Origin: Bacilli bacterium
Lineage (GTDB): Bacteria; Bacillota_I; Bacilli_A; RF39; UBA660
DNA length: 49,749 bases
Assembly (NCBI GenBank): GCA_017887425.1
Contig: JAGHHZ010000023.1
Span: forward strand, 1-49,749
Direction of reading: 5' to 3'
In this document: positions 5,674-49,199 of the stretch, one piece after another
Position numbering within the stretch: the first letter of the stretch is position 1
Layout: every line of letters starts with the position of its first letter
Notes under the pieces: model-generated
Databases searched by the model: none
The model's input: only the letters and a program-made list of their open reading frames with translations
What the model was told of the DNA's origin: nothing
Made by a program: the position numbers and the translations under genes

Positions 5674-5796
5674 AATATCCTCCCTTCGCCTATATCTCGT
5701 ATAGACATACTCCGTGTAAATAACCCGATTTTCTTTATTTTATGTTTCAACTCAACCTGGTGTATCGGCAACCTCACACATCATCGCAGTCACACA
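5674..5796 (-). promoter_or_regulatory. Candidate S10-operon leader RNA
   Basis: This untranslated leader lies between the predicted transcription start (about 5796) and the rpsJ ATG. The minus strand contains GTGTGAGGTTGCCGATACAC, which closes as a small GTGT/ACAC hairpin. I recall a similar element from Firmicutes S10 leaders, but could not check this. A second hairpin, CTATA-CGAGA-TATAG at 5693-5707, sits just before the ribosome binding site. A regulatory role is inference. Confidence 0.5.
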
Positions 5797-5802
5797 TTCA
5801 AA

Positions 5803-5831
5803 ATTATACAATAAAAGTATATGAAAATCAA
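5803..5831 (-). promoter_or_regulatory. SigA-type promoter of the S10 operon
   Basis: On the minus strand TTGATT (5826-5831) and TATAAT (5803-5808) are separated by exactly 17 bases. This is a near-consensus housekeeping promoter, fitting strong expression of ribosomal protein genes. Confidence 0.85.
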
Positions 5832-5868
5832 GGTTTTTTTAGAAATTTCTTTAGTTTTTTTATCAAAC

Positions 5869-5905
5869 GATAAAAACTGTGAATTTTTATCCACAGTTTT
5901 ATTGT
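5869..5905 (-). terminator. Hairpin terminator after the prepilin-like gene
   Basis: AAAACTGTG (5874-5882 region) pairs with CACAGTTTT (5892-5900). One bulge and one G.U pair extend the stem on the outside to about 16 pairs. The stop codon of the upstream gene (5899-5901) lies in the arm. The trailing T-run on the minus strand is short, so termination strength is uncertain. Confidence 0.6.
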
Positions 5906-8513
5906 TTTACATACCAGTAACTACCTGATACACCATTTGTTGGGTAAGCACTACTACTTGATGAGGTTACTGTTCCAACTAAAGTACCACGTGATTGAGT
6001 TACTGAAGGTGTATATTCTGTTCCATTAAAGAAATCACCATTAGATGTTGTTGTAGAGTAAGATTTAATGTAGAAGACTGAAGCACAGTTAGCTAAATTT
6101 GAAAAGCCTCCATCAAGGCAATTATCTAGTTTTAAATATTTATAACCACTATTAAAATTTGATCTTGTATATTCACTTACAAATTTAGTTCTTCCTGAGA
6201 CCTCATATCTTTGGGTAGAAGAGTCGTATGTATAGCTAGTTCCAATCAACACGTAAGTACTCCAACCACGCCTACTAAAAGAATCTGACTCCCTAGTAAC
6301 ACTTTCATCAATAGTATATTTATTCCATACATATTGATATGGTGTCTGTTGTGATATTGTATTACTTGTTCTAGTATTTCCTGCTTTGTCTGTAGCAATT
6401 ACATATGCTGAATACGTTGTACCAGAAGCTAAACCACTAAGTGTAAATCTACCTGTTGTATTTGAAGTATGATAAGAGCCATTTAAGTATAATTTATAAC
6501 TTGCTATTCCACTTGTACTATCAGTTGTAGTTCCCGATACTGTAAATCCACTTGATGTTACACTTGAAGCTGATATTGTAAATGAATTTGGAAGTGTTTT
6601 ATCTACTTTAATTGTATAACTTCTAGTTGAAGAATTTCCAGCTAAATCAGTTGTTGTGATTGTTACTGTTTTTCCTGAAGTATTGCTCGTAACACTTGAT
6701 ATATTGCTTGTTGTACTATTATGTCCTGATAATGAATCGCTTCCATTAGATACATTTACTGTTACATTGCTTCGATACCAATTATCACTTCCTGATGTTC
6801 CTGTGAAAGTTGCAGTTCCAGCTGTTGGAGCAGTTTTATCTAATTTATATGTGTTGCTACATACTTTGGTTGTTTTGTTATTATTATCAGTTACTTGAAC
6901 ACACGCTCTATTACTTCCTTCAACTGATATTAAGAAATCTTTAGTAGTTCCTGTGAAACTTGCTACTGGTGTACATTCACTACTACTGTTGGTTGTACAA
7001 CTCATTCCACTTTGAATTCCCGTTCCACTATTATCAGTTATTGTTGCTCTTACATAGAAATCACTCTTTGCCCAACCGTTTGAGTTTATTGCACTACTAT
7101 TTACTAAACTAAATACGATTGTTGGGGCTTCGGCATCGATGATGATATTTCTTGTTACTTCTCTTACATTTCCAGCCTTATCACTTATACTATATACTAC
7201 TTGTTTTGTTCCAATTGTTGATGTGTCTATACTGCTTGGTGTTACTGTTAACTCACCATCGATTTGAGATAAAGTATCACTATAAGTTACACCATTGGTT
7301 AAGTTTACGGTTTCGTTTCGACTAACTGTTAAATCTCCAACCCCATCGATAATTGGTAATACTTTATCAATTTGATAATTATCACTACATATTTTTGAAC
7401 TTGTATTATTATTATCAATCGCTTCAATGCATACTTTATTAGTTGCGCTGCTTTCTTCTAATATTACTATTCCACCATTTTCGATATTTGTGGTTGGTTC
7501 ACAGTCAATTGTTCCTTTACAATATTTTATTTCTTTTATTCCTAATCCACTATTGTCTGTTACATCAATTTTAATTGAAACGTTTTCCTTTGACCAATTA
7601 TTACTATTAAATGGATTGCCCTGAACAGTAAATTCAACTACTGGTGGTTCACTTTGAACAGTAATAGTCCTATTTACAGTTGTTACATTGTCAGCATTAT
7701 CGCTAACGGTATAAGTTACGGTTTTAGTTCCGGCAGTTGAAGTATCAACAGTATTTGGTTCAACAGTATAAGCTCCAGCTAACCCTGAACCTGATGGATT
7801 ATCACTAATTGTAATTCCTTTGTTGAGATCTACTTCGGCAAATCGATCAACCGTTATTGGTTCAACTCCATTTATAACTGGTGGAGTCTTATCTAATTTA
7901 ATACTTTTGCATAAAGTTTCACTTTTACCTAAAGGATTTTCTGTATATCCACATAAATAAGTTGTTCCTTCGTTTACTACAAACTTAGTATTAGAATTAT
8001 TTTGAATTAATTCTGTTGGTTCGCATTCTTCATTACTAATACAATATCTAATTTCACCATTACCAACAAATGTAACACCAATATTTTCTTTTGCCCAACC
8101 TTTACTATTAATCAATTGTTCGTTATATGTAATATTTATAGTTGGATCTGTTATATCACACGTATTATCATATTCAAAATCATATTGGTTAAATTCTGGA
8201 TTCCATTTATACCAAACACATCCGTTCATTTCTTGATCGTTGACTGGGTTAATTATTGCTTGTTCCAACAATCCATACTCTTTAAGAGTACTTAAAAACA
8301 AGATTTTTTCTTCGGTTGATTCCCCCAAATCTTCTAATGTACTATAGTTTTTAGCTGCTTCGATTATGCTATCTACTGTTCTATCATAGGCAGCTTGACG
8401 ACTATTACTTATTATAGCATCAATTATAGGTGTAGTTATTAAAGCTATTGCTGCTAACATAACTAGTATTCCAATTACTTCTGTCAATGTAAAACCATTT
8501 TTTTATCTACCAT
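5899..8513 (-). CDS. Large prepilin-type surface protein with Ig-like repeats; leader out of frame
   Basis: The open frame reads (N)GFTLTEVIGILVMLAAIALITTPII, a type IV prepilin methylation motif with the Glu at +5 and a hydrophobic helix. The only in-frame start is a TTG inside that motif (8487). ATG 8511-8513, with AAGGAAGGG 7 bases upstream, would give the leader MVDKKNG just before FTLTE, but is one base out of phase across the A7 run at 8498-8504. After a pilin-like N-terminal 100 residues come alternating modules: segments with a GW(A/S)K motif and paired cysteines, and DUF5011/HYR-like Ig domains with LDKTPP linkers. Then comes an FN3-like domain and a C-terminal domain ending YPTNGVSGSYWYVKQ. 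The total is near 870 residues, far larger than ordinary pilins. No pilus assembly genes lie nearby and no sortase signal is present. It may be an adhesin-like minor pilin; the function is not known. Confidence 0.8.
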
Positions 8514-8520
8514 CCAACAT

Positions 8521-8529
8521 CCCTTCCTT
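8521..8529 (-). promoter_or_regulatory. Ribosome binding site that decides the prepilin start
   Basis: AAGGAAGGG on the minus strand is spaced 7 bases from ATG 8513. It is badly placed for the TTG at 8487 (over 30 bases away). It therefore supports initiation at ATG 8513 and a frame change at the A7 run. Confidence 0.7.
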
Positions 8530-8563
8530 AATTACAAACTTTTTATTATATATAACTAACATA

Positions 8564-8592
8564 ATTCTATCGTATTTCATATTAATAGTCAA
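8564..8592 (-). promoter_or_regulatory. Promoter of the prepilin-like gene
   Basis: TTGACT (8587-8592) and TAGAAT (8564-8569) lie 17 bases apart on the minus strand. They are about 50 bases before the ATG at 8513 and downstream of the vanY terminator, so the gene has its own transcription unit. Confidence 0.75.
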
Positions 8593-8611
8593 TGTGATTT
8601 ATACAAATAAA

Positions 8612-8641
8612 ATGAAAAAAGTGATTTTCTACATCACTTTT
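8612..8641 (-). terminator. Rho-independent terminator after the vanY-like gene
   Basis: The 9-bp stem AAAAGTGAT/ATCACTTTT with a 7-base loop (8617-8641) is followed on the minus strand by a T-rich run. It lies 20 bases after the stop of the carboxypeptidase gene. Confidence 0.85.
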
Positions 8642-8661
8642 ACAATATTTAAATATTATAA

Positions 8662-40333: not shown

Positions 40334-43300
40334 ATGTTGGAAAGCAGGGATAATTTGAAAACTAAAAGAGATTTAAAAATAATTACTAAACATTATAATG
40401 AATTAATAAAAATAACAAAACAGCATTATTTTATTGGTATAACAAACGAATGGATTATTGATAATTATTATTTATTAGTTGAAAAAGAAAATGAAATAAA
40501 ACATTTTTATAAAAATAAAAAAGAAAATCGTTATTTATATAAAAATATCAATTTAGTTAATATTTTGACGCATATTTTGGAATTTAGAAATTATAAAATT
40601 GATCAACTTAGCTTAATTGAAAATATTAATGATTATTGTAAAAAAAACAATATTCATTTAAAGTATCAAGAAATAAAAATAATTCCAGTTACTTTATCGA
40701 TTATTATTATTAACAAGTTGAGTGAAATCTGTCAAAATGAAAGTAATGAATTAAAAGAAAAAGCTAATATCGATAATATTATCAAGAAAATACAAAAAGA
40801 TTATTTAAAAAAAGGCAAAATCAAATTAGAAAATTATTTTTATGAAGATTTTTACAGTTCATTATCAGCAATCACTATATTTAATGATAAAATTAAAAAA
40901 TTTGGAAAAAATTCCAATGAAATATTTAAGCAATTTAATAAAATTTTAGAAAGCAGAAAAATATCTTTAAAAGACGTTATAAATAAAGAGCATTTTAATA
41001 ACACAAATAGTAATATTTTGGTTGCTAATATTTTCCACAGTATAAAACAAATTGATAATATTGAAATTGAAAGTCTAGTTCATAATCTTTGTGATATTGA
41101 AAAAATTTTAAATAAAGATCCTTATTACAATATGATGACACTTGAAACAAAAAACGCCTATCGTAGACAATTAATAAAATTAGCTAAAAAGAAAAAAGTT
41201 GATATTATTGAATTAACCGAAAAACTAATTAACATTGACAATAATATTGGTAATGTTTTGTTTAAAAGTCAAAACGATGGTATAAAAGTTGTTATCTATT
41301 TATTGTTAGTAACTGTTATTAGTGTCAGTTTATCTATTCTCTTATCACTTTATTTTATACCTGTTAAATGGCTAGGATTTTTAATTTTACTTATTCCAGT
41401 AAGTGAAATTGTTATAACTTTTTTAAATAAAATTTATCTTAAAATATTTCCACCAAAACCTTTGGCAAAATTAGATTTTGAAAAGGGAATACCTAAAAAT
41501 TACAAAACGATGGTAGTTATTCCTACTATTTTAAAAAATAAAGAGAAAGTTGATGAAGTATTTAATAAATTAGAAGCTTATTATTTGGCAAATAAATCAA
41601 AAAATCTTTATTTTACTCTTTTAGGAGATGCTTGTGAAAGTAAAACAGAAACATTTGCAAAAGATGACGAAGTAAAAAAAGCGGGTATTGCAAAAGTTAA
41701 CGAATTAAACAAAAAATATAAAGAAGAGATCTTCTATTTTGCTTATCGAACTAGAAAATATAGTGAAAGTGAAGGATGTCATCTTGGATTTGAAAGAAAA
41801 AGAGGTGCATTATTACACTTTAATGATTTAATTTTAAATAATATGAGTGAAGAAGAACAAAATTATTGGTTTCAGATTCATACATTTAATAATTTTAAAC
41901 ATAAGATTAAATATGTTATTACTTTAGATGTTGATACACAATTGATTTTAAACAGCGCTTTAAAATTAGTTGGAACAATGGCTCATCCAATCAATAAACC
42001 TATCCTAAATGAAGAAAAAACAAAAGTAATAAAAGGATATGGTATTTTGCAGCCTAAAATAAGTGTCGATGTTGAATCAACTAATCAATCCTTATTTTCT
42101 CAAATTTATGCAGGAATAGGGGGACTAGATCCATATTCAACTATCGTTCCTAATTTTTATCAAGATGTTTTTTCAGAAGGAAGTTTTATTGGAAAAGGAA
42201 TTTATGATTTAGAGGTTTATCAAACAATTTTAAAAGGAAGATTTCCTAATCAACTTATTTTAAGTCACGATTTATTAGAAGGTAACTACTTAAGATGTGG
42301 GGTAGTTAGTGATATTGAATTATTTGATGATTTTCCTTCTAAATTTTTAGTCGATGTTACAAGACGTTCACGTTGGGCAAGAGGAGATATGCAAGTAATC
42401 GGCTGGATTTTTAGAAAGGTAAAAGATGAAAAAGGAAGTAAATATAAAAATCCTATCAATCTTTTAGGGAAATGGAAGATTATTGATAATATTCGAAGAA
42501 GTTTATTAGATTTTTCTTTATTGTTAATTTTAATATGCCTAGCAAGTTATTCTATAGTTCACCCTTATTGGTGGTTATTATTTATATTATTTGTAGTTAT
42601 TTTACCTGTTATTTCCCACATAATTCAATTATTTACTATTCAAAGCAAAAACAGTAAAAATTTAAAATATTACAACATTATGGCTTTTGGTTATCAAGCA
42701 TTTATTTTAAGAACGTTATCAGTCTTTACTAGTATTCCTTATAACGCATATTTATATGTTAAAGCATTTATGACTTCTCTTTATCGAATGCTAATTAGTA
42801 AAAAACATTTACTACAATGGATGACAGCGGAAGATGCTTCAAAAAAAGTAAAAACTAATCTTGCTAATCACATAAGACAATTTTGGGTAAATTATGTTGT
42901 TTCATTAGCAATTATTCTTTTAGCAATATTTGTAAGCGATAGAGCCATTGAATGCTTTATTATTGCTTTATTTTTTATGATAGCTCCTTTCTTAGCATAT
43001 GCAATCAGTGAAGATATTAAAAGTAATAATCGAAAAATTAAAGCTAACGATTTTGAATATTTAAATAATGTCGCTAAATTAACATGGAATTTCTTTAAAG
43101 ATAATCTTACTTTAGAAAACAATTGTTTAATTCCTGATAATTATCAACTAAATCGTGAAAAAAAGGCTGATTATAAAACTTCTCCTACAAATATAGGCCT
43201 ATCTTTAACATCAATTTTATCAGCTTATGAATTAGGCTTTATTTCCAAGAAAGAAACAATAAATTATTTAGATAAAATTATTAATACTGTGGAAAAATTA

Positions 43301-46300
43301 CCTAAATGGAATGGACATCTTTATAATTGGTATAGAATCGATACTTTAGAAGTTATTCTTCCACATTTCATTTCAACTGTTGATAGCGGTAATTTCATAG
43401 CTTCATTGATAACTGTTAAAGAATTTTTATATTCAATCAAAGAGAATAGTTTAGCTGAAAAAGTACAAAAATTAATTAAGAAGACCGATTTTTCTAAGCT
43501 TTATACAAAAGAGGATGTTTTCAGTATCGGATATAATGTCGATGAAGGTGTTTTAGAACCATTTAATTATAATAAGTTTGCTAGCGAAAGCAGAATTACT
43601 AGTTATCTAGCTATTGCCAAAGGTGATGTTCCAAGTAAACATTGGTTTAATTTAGATAAAACTCTTACAACTTATAAAAGAAAAAAAGGACTTGTTTCAT
43701 GGTCTGGTACTTCTTTTGAATATTTTATGCCTTTATTATTTATTCCAACTTATGATAATACTCTAATTGATGAAAGCTATGATTTTGCTTTTTATACACA
43801 AAAAGAATTTATGAAAGAAGTAAATAAAAAACTACCTTGGGGAATATCTGAATCAGCTTACAATGAGTTAGACGATGCTCAAAATTATAAATATAAAGCA
43901 TTTGCCACTCCTTATTTAAAACTCCAAGAAGATTCAGGAAGTCGCATTGTTATTTCACCATATAGTTCTATTTTAGCCTTATCATTATTTCCAACTGAAG
44001 TATTAACTAATATGAAAAAATTAGAAAGTTTAAATCTTCTTGGAAAATATGGCTTTTATGAATCTTATGATGTCGATGATGAAGCTATTGTTTATTCTTA
44101 TTTTGCTCATCATCAAGGAATGATTTTAGGAAGTATTGCGAATACATTAAAATCTAATATTTTACAAAAATATTTCGTTAGTGATATCAATAATAATGCT
44201 TTTGAAATATTAAACAAAGAGAAAGTTCAATTAAAACCAATAATCGATGTAAATATCACAAAATATAAAAAATATTCTTATGATAAGGAACCATTCGTTA
44301 ACGATATTCGTGTTTTCCATCAACTTTCTACTTTACCGGAAGTTTCAGTCCTTTCTAATTCTAAATATAGTGTATTTATGAATGATCGAGGAAATGGTTT
44401 TAGTAGATACCGAACAATTCAATTAAATCGTTATCGTAAAATTACAGAACAAGATTATGGTATGTTCTTGTATATAAAAGATACTGACACTAATTATGTT
44501 TGGTCTAACACTTATGCTCCAATTAATAAAATGCCAGAAAAATATGAAGTAGTTTTTGCTTTAGATAAAATGAAATTTATTAGATTGGATCACGACATCA
44601 TCACAACAACAGAGGTAGTTGTTACTAAAACTCATCATGCTGAAATTAGAAAAATTACTTTTAAAAATATTGGTGATAAAGATAAAAATCTAGAATTGAC
44701 AAGTTACACTGAACCAATACTAAGCGAGAATATGGATGATATTAGTCATAAAACATTTCAAAATTTATTTGTTCAAAGTGAATATGATGAAGAAAATAAA
44801 TCAGTTATCATGCATCGTAAATTAAGAGATAGTGATACAACTTATTATTTAATAAACAAATTATTAATTAATGATAATAGTGAAATTAGCTACGAAACTA
44901 ACCGTAATAATTTTATTGGACGAAATCGAACTGGCGCTAATCCAATTGGTTTGGATAAAGAACTTAGTAATAAAAGTGGAACTTGTATAGATCCTATTAT
45001 CAGTTTAAGAAGTAATGTGAAGATTAAAGCTAATAGTGAAAAATCTATATATCTTATAAGCGGTTTTGGGAAATCAAAAGAACAAGTTTTAGAAATCGTA
45101 AAAACATTTTCTAATCCTGATACAATTTCTGAAAAGGCTTTTGAAGTCGCAACTATTATGAGTAATGTTACTAATAAAATGGTTGACATTTCAGGACACG
45201 ATATGCGACTTTACAATACAATGCTTAATTATTTATATCAAACTAGTCATATTATCGTTAATAATGAAAGAAAAGAAATTCTACACAAAAACGTTTTAAA
45301 TCAAACAGGATTGTGGAAATTCGGTATTTCTGGTGATCGTCCAATTATCTTATTAGAAGTTGAAGAACTAGATAATTTAAGTTTAGTTAAAGAATTACTA
45401 CATGCTTTTGAATATTATAAAAGTAAATCTATATTTATCGATTTAATCATTTTAAATAGTTATATTGAACAAGATAAACAAATAATCAATGATGAAATCG
45501 ATAACGAAAAATATCATATGTATGCTTTAAATAGTTTCAACAAAACTCCAGGAAACATCTATGTAATTAATCCTGATGATGTTAATGAAGATGAAATAAA
45601 TCTATTTAAAACAACTGCTAGAATATATATTAATAGTAGCAAATTTCATTCTTTAGAAGAATTTGTTTTAAATCTTCAAAAACTAAATACTATTAGCAGA
45701 AAAGAAACGGTTAAAAGAGAAAATAGCTTACCTATTGAATATAATAAAGATAAACTTGTATTTTATAATGGCTATGGTGGATTTTGTGACAATGGAAAAA
45801 AATATGTAATTACTAATCCTGATACGCCTTTAATTTGGTGTAATATTTTAGCTAATGAAAACTTTGGTAGTATTGTTTCAAATAATCAGACTGGATTTAC
45901 CTATGCTGAAAACAGCCGAGAATATAAATTGACTTCTTGGACTAACGATCCTTTATTAGCAGATGCATCAGAAGGAATAAAAATAAACGATATCCATTTA
46001 AAATATCAACTAACCGAAGTAAGTTTTGGTAAAATGTATTTTATAGGTAAATGGAAGGATTTAGAATTTGAATTAACGCAATTCGTTGCCACTAATGATC
46101 CGATTAAATTTTACTATTTAAAAATTAAAAACACTGGCAAAAATAGCCAAAAAATAAAATTAAATTATTGGATTAATCCTTGCTTAGGCGTTACTGAAGA
46201 AAAAACAAGTCGTTATATCTTAAGTGAATTTAATAAAGAAGAAAATTGCGTAATATTAAAAAATAAATATAGCCAACATTTTTCTAATTTAGTAACTTTA

Positions 46301-48019
46301 ATGAGTTGCACTTTACCAATTGAAGATGCAAAAATTAAAAGAATTCTATCAAAAGAAATAGAAACTTATGTTGAAGTTGATAGTAATGAAGATATTAGTT
46401 TATGTTTTATGTTAGCTTCAATAACTGAAGATAATATCGATAATCTATTAAATAAATATAATTCGATAAATAAAATTAAAAACGAAGAAAAAAATGTGGA
46501 AAAATATTGGCAAAATATGTTAAACACAATTCAAGTTAAAACTAGTGATGACAGCTTTAATTACATGATAAATGGTTGGTTAGCATATCAAGCAATTACT
46601 TCAAGAATTTATTCAAAAGCAGGTTTCTATCAAGTCGGTGGTGCTTATGGTTATCGTGATCAATTACAAGACTGTATGAATATTTGTACCATTCATCCTG
46701 AAATGACTCGCCAACAAATTTTATTTAATGCAAAACATCAATTTCAAGAAGGAGATGTCCTTCATTGGTGGCATAAAGAAAATAGATTTGGCTTAAGATC
46801 AAGATATAAAGACGATTATTTATGGCTTATTTATGCAACTAGTGAATACCTTGACATTACCCAAGATTATTCAATTTTAGATGAACAAATATGTTTTGTC
46901 GATGGACCTATCTTATCAGAGAAGGAAATGGAAAAAGGAATGGAATATTCTTATACTGAAAAAACAGCTAGCCTTTATGAACATTGCTTATTAGCTCTTA
47001 AATTAGCTAAAAACGAAATTGGTGAAAATGGACTACCACTTATGCGTGGAGGCGATTGGAACGACGGAATGAATAAAGTTGGAGAAGAAGGCAAAGGAAC
47101 TAGTGTATGGCTAGGATTCTTCCTATATCAAGTATTAGAAAAATTCATTAATTTTACAACAAAATACAATAAAAAGATCGATGTTGAAGAATGGGTGAAA
47201 TTTAAAAATGATTTAGCTAATTCTTTAAAAAATAATGCTTGGGACGGCGAATATTATTTAAGAGCTTTCTTCGATAATAACAATAAATTAGGTTCTAAAA
47301 GTAATTTAGAATGTAAAATTGATTTAATTTCACAAAGTTTTTCAATTCTTTCTGGAATTGCTAGTGATGAACAAATTCCTTCAATTTTGAATGCTGTGGA
47401 TAAACAATTAGTTGATAAGAATTTAAAAATTGTTAAATTACTATGGCCAGCTTTCCAACACAATAAAGATAACCCAGGATATATTATGAATTATCCTCCT
47501 GGAATTAGAGAAAATGGTGGACAATACACGCATGCTGTAGCATGGTATATTCAAACCTTGATAAAAGTTGGAGATTATGATTCAGCTTATCAAATTTATC
47601 AAATGATTAATCCAATTGAAAGAACAAAAGAGAAAAATGATACTGATATTTATCAATTAGAGCCATATGTAATTGCTGCTGATATTTATAGTAATAGCGA
47701 TTTTCCTGCTAAAGGTGGCTGGAGCTGGTATACAGGTAGTGCGGGATGGTTTTATCGCGTTGCTTTGATTGATATATTAGGTTTTAACAAAGTTGGTAAT
47801 AAACTTTATATAAAACCGCATGTTCCAAACACTTGGAATAAATTTGAAATTATATATAAATTTAATGATTCAACTTATCATTTATTAATTGAAAAAAGTA
47901 AAAATAATAGTATTACTGTGGATAATAATGTTATTAAAAAAGATTATATTGAGTTAATTGACGATGGTGACAATCATGAAGTCATTGTTAAAATAGGAGG
48001 AAATAATGTTAAAAACTGA
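40334..48019 (+). CDS. Cyclic beta-1,2-glucan synthase-like protein (GT84-cyclisation domain-GH94)
   Basis: A 2561-residue membrane protein with the order of Brucella/Rhizobium Cgs/NdvB: an N-terminal region, membrane helices near 320-375, a GT84 domain with TLDVDTQL (Asp 532/534), SHDLLEG near 644 and RRSRWARGDMQ near 677, more membrane helices to about 900, a glycoamylase-like cyclisation domain from about 945 (TSPTNIGLS, NWYRIDTLEV, VDSGN), two Glyco_transf_36 sandwiches and a C-terminal GH94 domain with GGAYGYRDQLQD near 2102 and RGGDWNDGMNKVG near 2236. Expected chemistry: beta-1,2-glucan made from UDP-glucose, then cyclised; GH94 trims by phosphorolysis. ATG 40334 lacks a ribosome binding site; TTG 40355 after AGGGAT is an alternative. 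It overlaps pgi by 14 bases. Confidence 0.85.
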   Translation: MLESRDNLKTKRDLKIITKHYNELIKITKQHYFIGITNEWIIDNYYLLVEKENEIKHFYKNKKENRYLYKNINLVNILTHILEFRNYKIDQLSLIENINDYCKKNNIHLKYQEIKIIPVTLSIIIINKLSEICQNESNELKEKANIDNIIKKIQKDYLKKGKIKLENYFYEDFYSSLSAITIFNDKIKKFGKNSNEIFKQFNKILESRKISLKDVINKEHFNNTNSNILVANIFHSIKQIDNIEIESLVHNLCDIEKILNKDPYYNMMTLETKNAYRRQLIKLAKKKKVDIIELTEKLINIDNNIGNVLFKSQNDGIKVVIYLLLVTVISVSLSILLSLYFIPVKWLGFLILLIPVSEIVITFLNKIYLKIFPPKPLAKLDFEKGIPKNYKTMVVIPTILKNKEKVDEVFNKLEAYYLANKSKNLYFTLLGDACESKTETFAKDDEVKKAGIAKVNELNKKYKEEIFYFAYRTRKYSESEGCHLGFERKRGALLHFNDLILNNMSEEEQNYWFQIHTFNNFKHKIKYVITLDVDTQLILNSALKLVGTMAHPINKPILNEEKTKVIKGYGILQPKISVDVESTNQSLFSQIYAGIGGLDPYSTIVPNFYQDVFSEGSFIGKGIYDLEVYQTILKGRFPNQLILSHDLLEGNYLRCGVVSDIELFDDFPSKFLVDVTRRSRWARGDMQVIGWIFRKVKDEKGSKYKNPINLLGKWKIIDNIRRSLLDFSLLLILICLASYSIVHPYWWLLFILFVVILPVISHIIQLFTIQSKNSKNLKYYNIMAFGYQAFILRTLSVFTSIPYNAYLYVKAFMTSLYRMLISKKHLLQWMTAEDASKKVKTNLANHIRQFWVNYVVSLAIILLAIFVSDRAIECFIIALFFMIAPFLAYAISEDIKSNNRKIKANDFEYLNNVAKLTWNFFKDNLTLENNCLIPDNYQLNREKKADYKTSPTNIGLSLTSILSAYELGFISKKETINYLDKIINTVEKLPKWNGHLYNWYRIDTLEVILPHFISTVDSGNFIASLITVKEFLYSIKENSLAEKVQKLIKKTDFSKLYTKEDVFSIGYNVDEGVLEPFNYNKFASESRITSYLAIAKGDVPSKHWFNLDKTLTTYKRKKGLVSWSGTSFEYFMPLLFIPTYDNTLIDESYDFAFYTQKEFMKEVNKKLPWGISESAYNELDDAQNYKYKAFATPYLKLQEDSGSRIVISPYSSILALSLFPTEVLTNMKKLESLNLLGKYGFYESYDVDDEAIVYSYFAHHQGMILGSIANTLKSNILQKYFVSDINNNAFEILNKEKVQLKPIIDVNITKYKKYSYDKEPFVNDIRVFHQLSTLPEVSVLSNSKYSVFMNDRGNGFSRYRTIQLNRYRKITEQDYGMFLYIKDTDTNYVWSNTYAPINKMPEKYEVVFALDKMKFIRLDHDIITTTEVVVTKTHHAEIRKITFKNIGDKDKNLELTSYTEPILSENMDDISHKTFQNLFVQSEYDEENKSVIMHRKLRDSDTTYYLINKLLINDNSEISYETNRNNFIGRNRTGANPIGLDKELSNKSGTCIDPIISLRSNVKIKANSEKSIYLISGFGKSKEQVLEIVKTFSNPDTISEKAFEVATIMSNVTNKMVDISGHDMRLYNTMLNYLYQTSHIIVNNERKEILHKNVLNQTGLWKFGISGDRPIILLEVEELDNLSLVKELLHAFEYYKSKSIFIDLIILNSYIEQDKQIINDEIDNEKYHMYALNSFNKTPGNIYVINPDDVNEDEINLFKTTARIYINSSKFHSLEEFVLNLQKLNTISRKETVKRENSLPIEYNKDKLVFYNGYGGFCDNGKKYVITNPDTPLIWCNILANENFGSIVSNNQTGFTYAENSREYKLTSWTNDPLLADASEGIKINDIHLKYQLTEVSFGKMYFIGKWKDLEFELTQFVATNDPIKFYYLKIKNTGKNSQKIKLNYWINPCLGVTEEKTSRYILSEFNKEENCVILKNKYSQHFSNLVTLMSCTLPIEDAKIKRILSKEIETYVEVDSNEDISLCFMLASITEDNIDNLLNKYNSINKIKNEEKNVEKYWQNMLNTIQVKTSDDSFNYMINGWLAYQAITSRIYSKAGFYQVGGAYGYRDQLQDCMNICTIHPEMTRQQILFNAKHQFQEGDVLHWWHKENRFGLRSRYKDDYLWLIYATSEYLDITQDYSILDEQICFVDGPILSEKEMEKGMEYSYTEKTASLYEHCLLALKLAKNEIGENGLPLMRGGDWNDGMNKVGEEGKGTSVWLGFFLYQVLEKFINFTTKYNKKIDVEEWVKFKNDLANSLKNNAWDGEYYLRAFFDNNNKLGSKSNLECKIDLISQSFSILSGIASDEQIPSILNAVDKQLVDKNLKIVKLLWPAFQHNKDNPGYIMNYPPGIRENGGQYTHAVAWYIQTLIKVGDYDSAYQIYQMINPIERTKEKNDTDIYQLEPYVIAADIYSNSDFPAKGGWSWYTGSAGWFYRVALIDILGFNKVGNKLYIKPHVPNTWNKFEIIYKFNDSTYHLLIEKSKNNSITVDNNVIKKDYIELIDDGDNHEVIVKIGGNNVKN

Positions 48020-49199
48020 CTTTAAAACATATATAAAAGATAAAAATATTGAATTATATAAGGAAAAAATAATTAATATCAAAAATACTTTAAATGCTGG
48101 TGGAGAAATGCTTGATTGGTATGATATTGACAAATGTATTTCTCAAAGTGATTTAAACAAGATTAAAGATATTAGCAAAGATATTCAAGAAAATTGCGAA
48201 TTATTTATTGTTATTGGAATAGGTGGTTCATTTTTAGGAGCTAAAGCTATTATTAGTGCCTTAAATCCATATTTTAAAAATAAAAAACCAGAAATTATAT
48301 TTGCTGGTAATTCCCTATCCGAAACTTATTTAACCGAATTAATTGAATATATGGAAGATAAAGATACAATTGTAAATGTTATTTCTAAATCAGGAACAAC
48401 TTTAGAGCCTAGTATAGCTTTTGATATCATTTATAACAAAATGCAAGAAAAATACAATCAGGATGAATTAAAAAGAAGAATCATTATTACAACTGATCCT
48501 GAAAAAGGAATCTTAAGAAAATTAGCAAATGATAATAATTATCCATCGTTCATTGTTCCAGAACAAATAGGAGGACGATACTCAGTTTTAACAGCTGTTG
48601 GCCTTCTTCCTATTGCTGTAGCTGGAATTGATATCGATAAGTTACTACTAGGAGCAAGACAAGTTAATAATGATTCAGCATTTGAATATGCAATAATTCG
48701 TGATATATTGTATCGTCAAGGAAAAACAGTCGAATTATTTACCTTTTATGAACCTAAATTAGAATATTTTATTGAGTGGCTTAAACAATTATTTGGTGAA
48801 ACTCAAGGCAAAGATAAAAAAGGAATTTTACCTAGCTCATCTAATAATACTAGAGATTTACATTCTTTAGGACAATTTTATCAAGAAGGAACGCCTATTA
48901 TTTTTGAAACAATAATCGGAATAGATAAAAAAGGAACATTAAAAAGCAACTTATATAACTATTCTATAGAGGATATTAACATGATTGCGCTTAAACAAGT
49001 AGCATATGCTCATTTAGATGCAGGCGTTGAAAGTAATGTTATAATGATAGACAAATTAGATGAAATTAATTTAGGTATGTTAATTTATTATTTTGAAACT
49101 GCAGCTGCAACTGGTGCTTATTTGCTTGATGTAAATCCTTTTGATCAACCTGGAGTATCCGCTTATAAAAAATTAATTGAAAAAGAACTAAAAAAATAG
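48006..49199 (+). CDS. pgi: Glucose-6-phosphate isomerase
   Basis: Interconverts glucose 6-phosphate and fructose 6-phosphate. The 397 residues are on the short side for the family. They carry IGIGGSFLGAKAI near 74-86, SKSGTTLEPS near 127-136 (sugar phosphate loop) and IGGRYSVLTAVGLLP. AGGAGG, inside the end of the glucan synthase gene, lies 5 bases before the ATG. The coupling to a GH94-bearing protein suits hexose-phosphate use, but this is inference. Confidence 0.95.
   Translation: MLKTDFKTYIKDKNIELYKEKIINIKNTLNAGGEMLDWYDIDKCISQSDLNKIKDISKDIQENCELFIVIGIGGSFLGAKAIISALNPYFKNKKPEIIFAGNSLSETYLTELIEYMEDKDTIVNVISKSGTTLEPSIAFDIIYNKMQEKYNQDELKRRIIITTDPEKGILRKLANDNNYPSFIVPEQIGGRYSVLTAVGLLPIAVAGIDIDKLLLGARQVNNDSAFEYAIIRDILYRQGKTVELFTFYEPKLEYFIEWLKQLFGETQGKDKKGILPSSSNNTRDLHSLGQFYQEGTPIIFETIIGIDKKGTLKSNLYNYSIEDINMIALKQVAYAHLDAGVESNVIMIDKLDEINLGMLIYYFETAAATGAYLLDVNPFDQPGVSAYKKLIEKELKK

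Follow-up and report, generated by a model that had tools for sequence, protein, structure and literature searches.

The window, i.e., the whole stretch of 49,749 nt that was analyzed, comes from the draft genome of a Bacilli bacterium (genome G000) and contains on its minus strand an open frame for a prepilin-headed surface protein (Table 1). The 866-codon frame starts NGFTLTEVIGILVMLAAIALITT at AAT 8499, a textbook prepilin head in which the motif is encoded by AAT GGT TTT ACA TTG ACA GAA. Just upstream lies an ATG with a good ribosome binding site, one base out of this frame; its codons, ATG GTA GAT AAA AAA ATG GTT TTA CAT TGA, yield the peptide MVDKKMVLH and a stop. The pilin frame itself is closed upstream by a TAA (8505–8503) immediately 5′ of AAA AAT, and the sole start listed within it, TTG 8487, sits inside FTLTE. 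An ATG of the pilin frame at 8520 was considered as a start and rejected, as it runs into the same TAA at any number of As. An earlier note on this DNA had read MVDKK and a stop after nine codons from ATG 8513, a pilin frame one base off and open for more than 860 codons, and a prepilin motif without a proper start; we recovered all three on the minus strand, with the long frame intact. The frame break falls into a leader of ~24 nt, ~1% of the gene length, and the A7 run in this leader is the only homopolymer of at least 7 nt in the gene.

Upstream of the gene, TTGACT-17-TAGAAT was among the two best promoter matches, with a total number of matches at chance level, and several paralogs show an equal promoter layout, TTGACT-17-TAAAAT. 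The coding frame displays the features of a prepilin leader, namely a short basic leader ending in G or A, the F-T-L-x-E motif and a hydrophobic stretch (NG/FTLTEVIGILVMLAAIALITT, with the slash at the predicted cut); a start in frame with this motif is lacking as assembled. The N-terminus of the protein strongly matched in-frame paralogs, and residues 1–37 gave a weak NCBIfam match to the ComGF pilin below the cut-off (E 0.02). Because there is no in-frame start as assembled, we claim type IV prepilin-like membership for the coding frame and not for a product.

Table 1 Features of the window gene, pilus-related genes of the same genome and example loci with poly-G leaders in Planctomycetota.
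Feature	Position or locus	Strand	Remarks
Promoter-like TTGACT-17 bp-TAGAAT, sigma-70-like	8564..8592	(-)	upstream of the gene
Shine-Dalgarno-like AAGGAAGGG	8521..8529	(-)	7 nt 5′ of ATG 8513, read directly
A of the ATG	8513	(-)	frame start as assembled, read directly
Short frame MVDKKMVLH, then stop	8484..8513	(-)	as assembled from ATG 8513
Leader A7 run	8498..8504	(-)	site of the apparent frame loss; A8 in same-layout relatives matching the leader design
Prepilin-headed surface protein, open frame NGFTLTEVIG...	5899..8499	(-)	866 aa plus stop codon (5899–5901)
Predicted prepilin peptidase cut	G (8494–8496) / F (8491–8493)	(-)	
Bacterial surface Ig-like domain PF16403, best stretch	7657..7818	(-)	Pfam match
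Fibronectin type III-like region PF00041	6349..6576	(-)	slightly below the Pfam cut-off
Variable C-terminal part	5902..6516	(-)	24–30% identity to paralogs that are mostly 68–79% identical just upstream
Intrinsic-terminator-like hairpin	5873..5900	(-)	directly 3′ of the stop codon
Prepilin peptidase PF01478	G000:C32		own genome
PilB-type assembly ATPase PF00437	G000:C31		own genome
DUF1559 poly-G loci, examples	L154:3751-4902, L163, L172:3298-4254, L101 (two copies), L183		range L081–L200

The window gene belongs to a multi-copy family. In a search of 100 relatives, matches were obtained in 70, most heavily in 17 genus-mates with many copies each, and the window's own genome contains 11 matching stretches. 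The paralogs in this genome are mostly 68–79% identical to the window protein over residues 290–660 and ~25% identical over residues 660–866. Against these paralogs, dN/dS is ~0.2 for amino acids 290–660, a value that reflects old divergence and not present function. Taken together, identity and dN/dS give the picture of what would be a maintained protein with a variable tip. A single gene encoding a prepilin peptidase (PF01478) was detected in each of the 18 genus genomes. PF00437 was matched in all 18 of them as well, with a strong PilB-type match in 17 and only a weaker one in G015.

In G005, a family gene with a poly-G leader (described below) is located directly upstream of rpsJ, the same locus as that of the window gene. 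The region between rpsJ and the genes for VanY and the U32 peptidase (window 5680–8660) resembles an insertion hot spot. Between the U32-peptidase gene and rpsJ, a short prepilin-like frame is present in G009, and the spot is empty in G001, G012 and G015. Elsewhere in the window, positions 40334–48019 encode a 2561-aa protein with glucoamylase-like and GH94 domains, resembling cyclic beta-glucan synthases, after which a phosphoglucose isomerase frame follows (48006–49199).

Many paralogs possess a longer type of leader, e.g., MIKLTNSKN-GGGG-HLLNN/AFTLIELLGVL, whose middle part corresponds to a run of 9 to 14 Gs. We read 41 distinct tracts of at least 8 Gs within the genus and found 31 of them immediately 5′ of [GA]FTLxE. 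Nearly all of the remaining tracts are of the same leader type and are followed by the end of a contig, a degenerate motif, a head of another kind (GFAISGIIYSIL) or nothing recognizable as a head; L203 is the sole tract of this length in the genus that seems unrelated to this leader type. Altogether, G9 to G14 tracts occur in the 5′ coding region, within the leaders, of ~40 genus paralogs. The paralogs L023, L032, L043 and L050 have the same leader without the long tract and stay in frame, which argues that the leader is coding sequence. The window's own genome harbors three poly-G copies (on contigs C26, C29 and C36), all with G10 and all out of frame, where 0.04 runs of at least nine Gs would be expected.

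Among the 30 assembled genus copies with a clear ATG, 8 are on, while 12 and 10 are in the two wrong frames, a split that fits random tract length (p=0.67); in metagenome assemblies, poly-G lengths may themselves be miscounted by one base. Three near-identical pairs of copies differ by a single G that shifts the frame, and two of the three pairs consist of an on and an off copy. In the first pair, G000:C26 (G10, off) matches G010:C70 (G9, on) without a mismatch for 639 bases 3′ of the tract; in the second, G003:C13 (G10, off) and G002:C74 (G9, on) show 96% identity in the flanks to either side; the third consists of G003:C17 with G13 and G002:C47 with G12, whose upstream DNA is 97.7% identical. 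Judged from the assembled sequences, the genus paralogs appear to undergo translational phase variation by means of poly-G. The 639 identical bases of G000:C26 (L022) and G010:C70 (L029) occur in two species with differing upstream DNA, suggesting a recent transfer, recombination between copies, or one contig that was binned twice.

At L210, L211 and L212 (in G012 and G014), the same poly-G leader stands ahead of a different head, GFAISGIIYSILIL. No Pfam match was found for L210, and these genes perhaps represent another class of phase-variable envelope proteins. At four further loci (L202, L218, L223 and L224), a sequence resembling the poly-G leader, LANxxxGGG, lacks a prepilin motif downstream and may represent a remnant or a silent cassette. 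Across the wider family, poly-G leaders were identified in 19 of 386 genomes, representing 13 of 150 genera, and a reversed control pattern gave no match in the scan of these 386 genomes.

In a collection of named genomes, we also scanned for poly-G upstream of FT[LIM][IV]E and obtained at least 120 stretches. Besides gut Bacilli, the matches listed came mainly from assemblies of Planctomycetaceae, Thermoguttaceae and Planctomycetia, several of them from ruminant gut. The three Planctomycetota proteins tested were DUF1559 proteins (PF07596) with an N-methylation motif. Among the matches listed, the Planctomycetota tracts comprise G8–G13 in the leader just 5′ of FTLVELLVVIAIIG, often in the context NVK[LIM]GGGG, with G8 matches in GC-rich genomes likely being due to chance. 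Thirty-five of the matches listed have a ribosome binding site and an ATG; 16 of these are on, and 9 and 10 are in the wrong frames. The DUF1559 proteins of gut Planctomycetota hence resemble the Bacilli family in that a poly-G tract lies in the leader and all three frames are seen, and differ from it in that they belong to another phylum and have another protein behind the prepilin head. Because both protein family and phylum differ, the poly-G leaders of the Planctomycetota DUF1559 genes probably had an independent origin.

The leader of the window gene is of a different design, for which the family-wide pattern A≥7-TG[GC]-FT was matched in 51 of 386 genomes. We read 31 of these A-run leaders in full: 24 with A8 and 6 with A7 are in frame with their start, and the window is the only exception. 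The leader of L312, ATG TTA GAT A8 TGG GTT TAC (MLDKKNG/FTLVE), follows the same design as the MVDKK leader in the window. As all 30 relatives including the L312 type are in frame and A8 prevails among them, A8 appears to be the usual form, from which the window would have lost one base. The earlier note had predicted that an eighth A would create a perfect short prepilin leader, and the nearly identical leader with GAT-A8 in L312 bears this out.

None of the 30 A7/A8 leaders found elsewhere starts in a wrong frame (upper 95% bound, 9.5%), compared to 22 of the 30 poly-G leaders (p about 1e-9); the A run therefore does not behave as a switch. Within the genus, 59 of 62 leaders without poly-G have an in-frame start, the exceptions being the window, L051 and L217, and in L217 a poly-G tract lies further upstream. 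At L051:1096 (G011:C1, about 70095), the leader reads ATGTTA with an A6 run in total ahead of GGATTT, one base short of an in-frame start, and 352 codons are open 3′ of the frame break. Phase variation, one of the explanations offered in the earlier note, is thus relevant to the gene family, but the A run as its switch is not borne out by the relatives. What the note had missed is the family's apparent switch, the poly-G tract in the leaders of many paralogs, including the three in the window's own genome.

From these comparisons, we regard the window gene, on balance, as a probable off allele from a multi-copy, type IV prepilin-headed family that would be switched by homopolymer slippage in the leader. 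During replication, slipped-strand mispairing in the G tract would shift the frame between the ATG and the GFTL/AFTL motif, and a given pilin would be made by a cell only when the tract length fits. From an in-frame prepilin, the prepilin peptidase would cut off the leader including the glycines, and because the leader is cut away, extra glycines would leave the mature protein unaltered. Many copies switching independently would produce a random surface repertoire. In the window gene, which has no G tract, the loss of one base in an A8 run would turn expression off and spare the promoter, the ribosome binding site and all 866 codons. The resulting A7 run could revert by slippage, at a low rate and not as a dedicated switch. 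A true loss of frame would be far more tolerable in a family with most assembled copies off than in an ordinary gene. With a little better than even confidence, we extend this to a broader proposal: gut Bacilli and, independently, gut Planctomycetota would possess pilin-headed repertoires with a stochastic poly-G switch in the cleaved leader, giving random combinations of pili with unchanged mature proteins, and the window gene would be an off member with an A run.

As the window gene has no poly-G tract and A-run leaders elsewhere are never off, it is possibly just broken or misassembled. In the latter case, the genome would truly contain A8 and the gene would normally be on, with one A dropped from the draft. 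The assembly consists of 36 contigs with an estimated completeness of 87.6%, and the correction would restore the usual form found among the same-layout leaders. However, the 65 other A/T runs of at least 7 nt that lie within ORFs of the window all keep the frame, and a 427-kb sample of the genome with 555 such coding runs contained only 13 candidates for unstarted junctions, of which few coincide with homopolymers, so that homopolymer errors seem to be rare in this draft. An error would, moreover, have to strike by coincidence the leader of a family in which off copies are common. We consider such an error a serious, though rather unlikely, explanation.

A broken gene would be an incipient pseudogene with the deletion in the leader as its first lesion. 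This overlaps with the off-allele reading and is inseparable from it by sequence. A frame break without an in-frame start is what decay would leave behind, and the loss of a single member would be tolerable in a large paralog family; against it, nothing else is damaged in the 866 codons, the promoter or the terminator, and the dN/dS against paralogs is low. Plain decay thus appears unlikely.

That the A run is itself a dedicated poly-A phase switch, analogous to the G tracts of the paralogs, is doubtful. It occupies the same functional place as these tracts, and a second A-run leader in the genus (L051) is also one base out, but the in-frame state of all A7/A8 relatives speaks against this idea, and A7 runs are common in a genome with 28% GC, where the tract is not unusually long. 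Missing mismatch repair was considered as a cause of unstable short runs and rejected, as genes for MutS and MutL were found; these would be expected to keep a short A run fairly stable. Programmed slippage of RNA polymerase or the ribosome on the A run, which the earlier note had also put forward and by which some protein would come from the A7 gene, is very improbable: AAA AAA in frame would permit one-tRNA slippage and the ribosome binding site and ATG are intact, but the run is only A7 and the frame reads T AAA AAA instead of a canonical X XXY YYZ heptamer, folding compared to shuffled sequence revealed no stimulatory RNA structure around the run (z-score -0.63), no same-layout relative retains an off-by-one A-run leader, and the poly-G copies use both wrong frames equally, without a preferred offset.

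Repeat-driven on/off switching has long been known, and the most familiar examples of poly-G contingency loci come from pathogens such as Neisseria; in modular type IV pilins such as PilB of Streptococcus sanguinis, we know of no switching tract. The proposed Bacilli poly-G switch can be likened to Neisseria pilC and opa (PMC5320596, PMC5953494). For pilC1/pilC2, poly-G translational phase variation is described (Jonsson et al. 1991, as cited in PMC5320596 and PMC5953494), with a G tract (G9–G15) close to the 5′ end in a gene for pilus function and two thirds of the lengths out of frame. PilC is a pilus-associated accessory protein with two copies and not a prepilin, whereas in the Bacilli family it is the type III (prepilin) leader itself, in many pilin-headed paralogs, that contains the tract. 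The opa genes likewise form a multi-copy surface family, in which each copy is switched separately near its 5′ end, resulting in a combinatorial surface, but they use a pentamer repeat (CTTCT) and encode outer-membrane beta barrels with another secretion route.

In pilE/pilS antigenic variation of Neisseria, a surface type IV pilin is varied as well, by gene conversion into a single expressed locus, whereas the Bacilli copies each come with a start and a tract of their own. In addition, the Bacilli copies may recombine with one another, considering the identical 639-bp blocks at different loci. PilB of S. sanguinis (PMC8179133) is similar in being a modular type IV pilin with a large extra domain in a Gram-positive bacterium; the extra domains differ, those of the Bacilli family being Ig-like repeats and a variable C-terminus.

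We did not find poly-G in cleaved prepilin leaders as a repertoire-wide switch in the literature searched, which included few subscription journals and no preprints. By itself, the A7 frame break is of low interest. The leader is a neat site for a switch, as any in-frame change is removed along with it. For annotation, the poly-G family calls for caution: with 22 of 30 such genus genes out of frame in assemblies, they would be called leaderless or pseudogenes. Counts of tract lengths in existing metagenome reads could probe the switching immediately. Poly-G tracts in the prepilin leaders of multiple genes of uncultured gut commensals, with a similar layout in another phylum, suggest random switching of pilus composition as a general answer to pressure from phages or the immune system in the gut.
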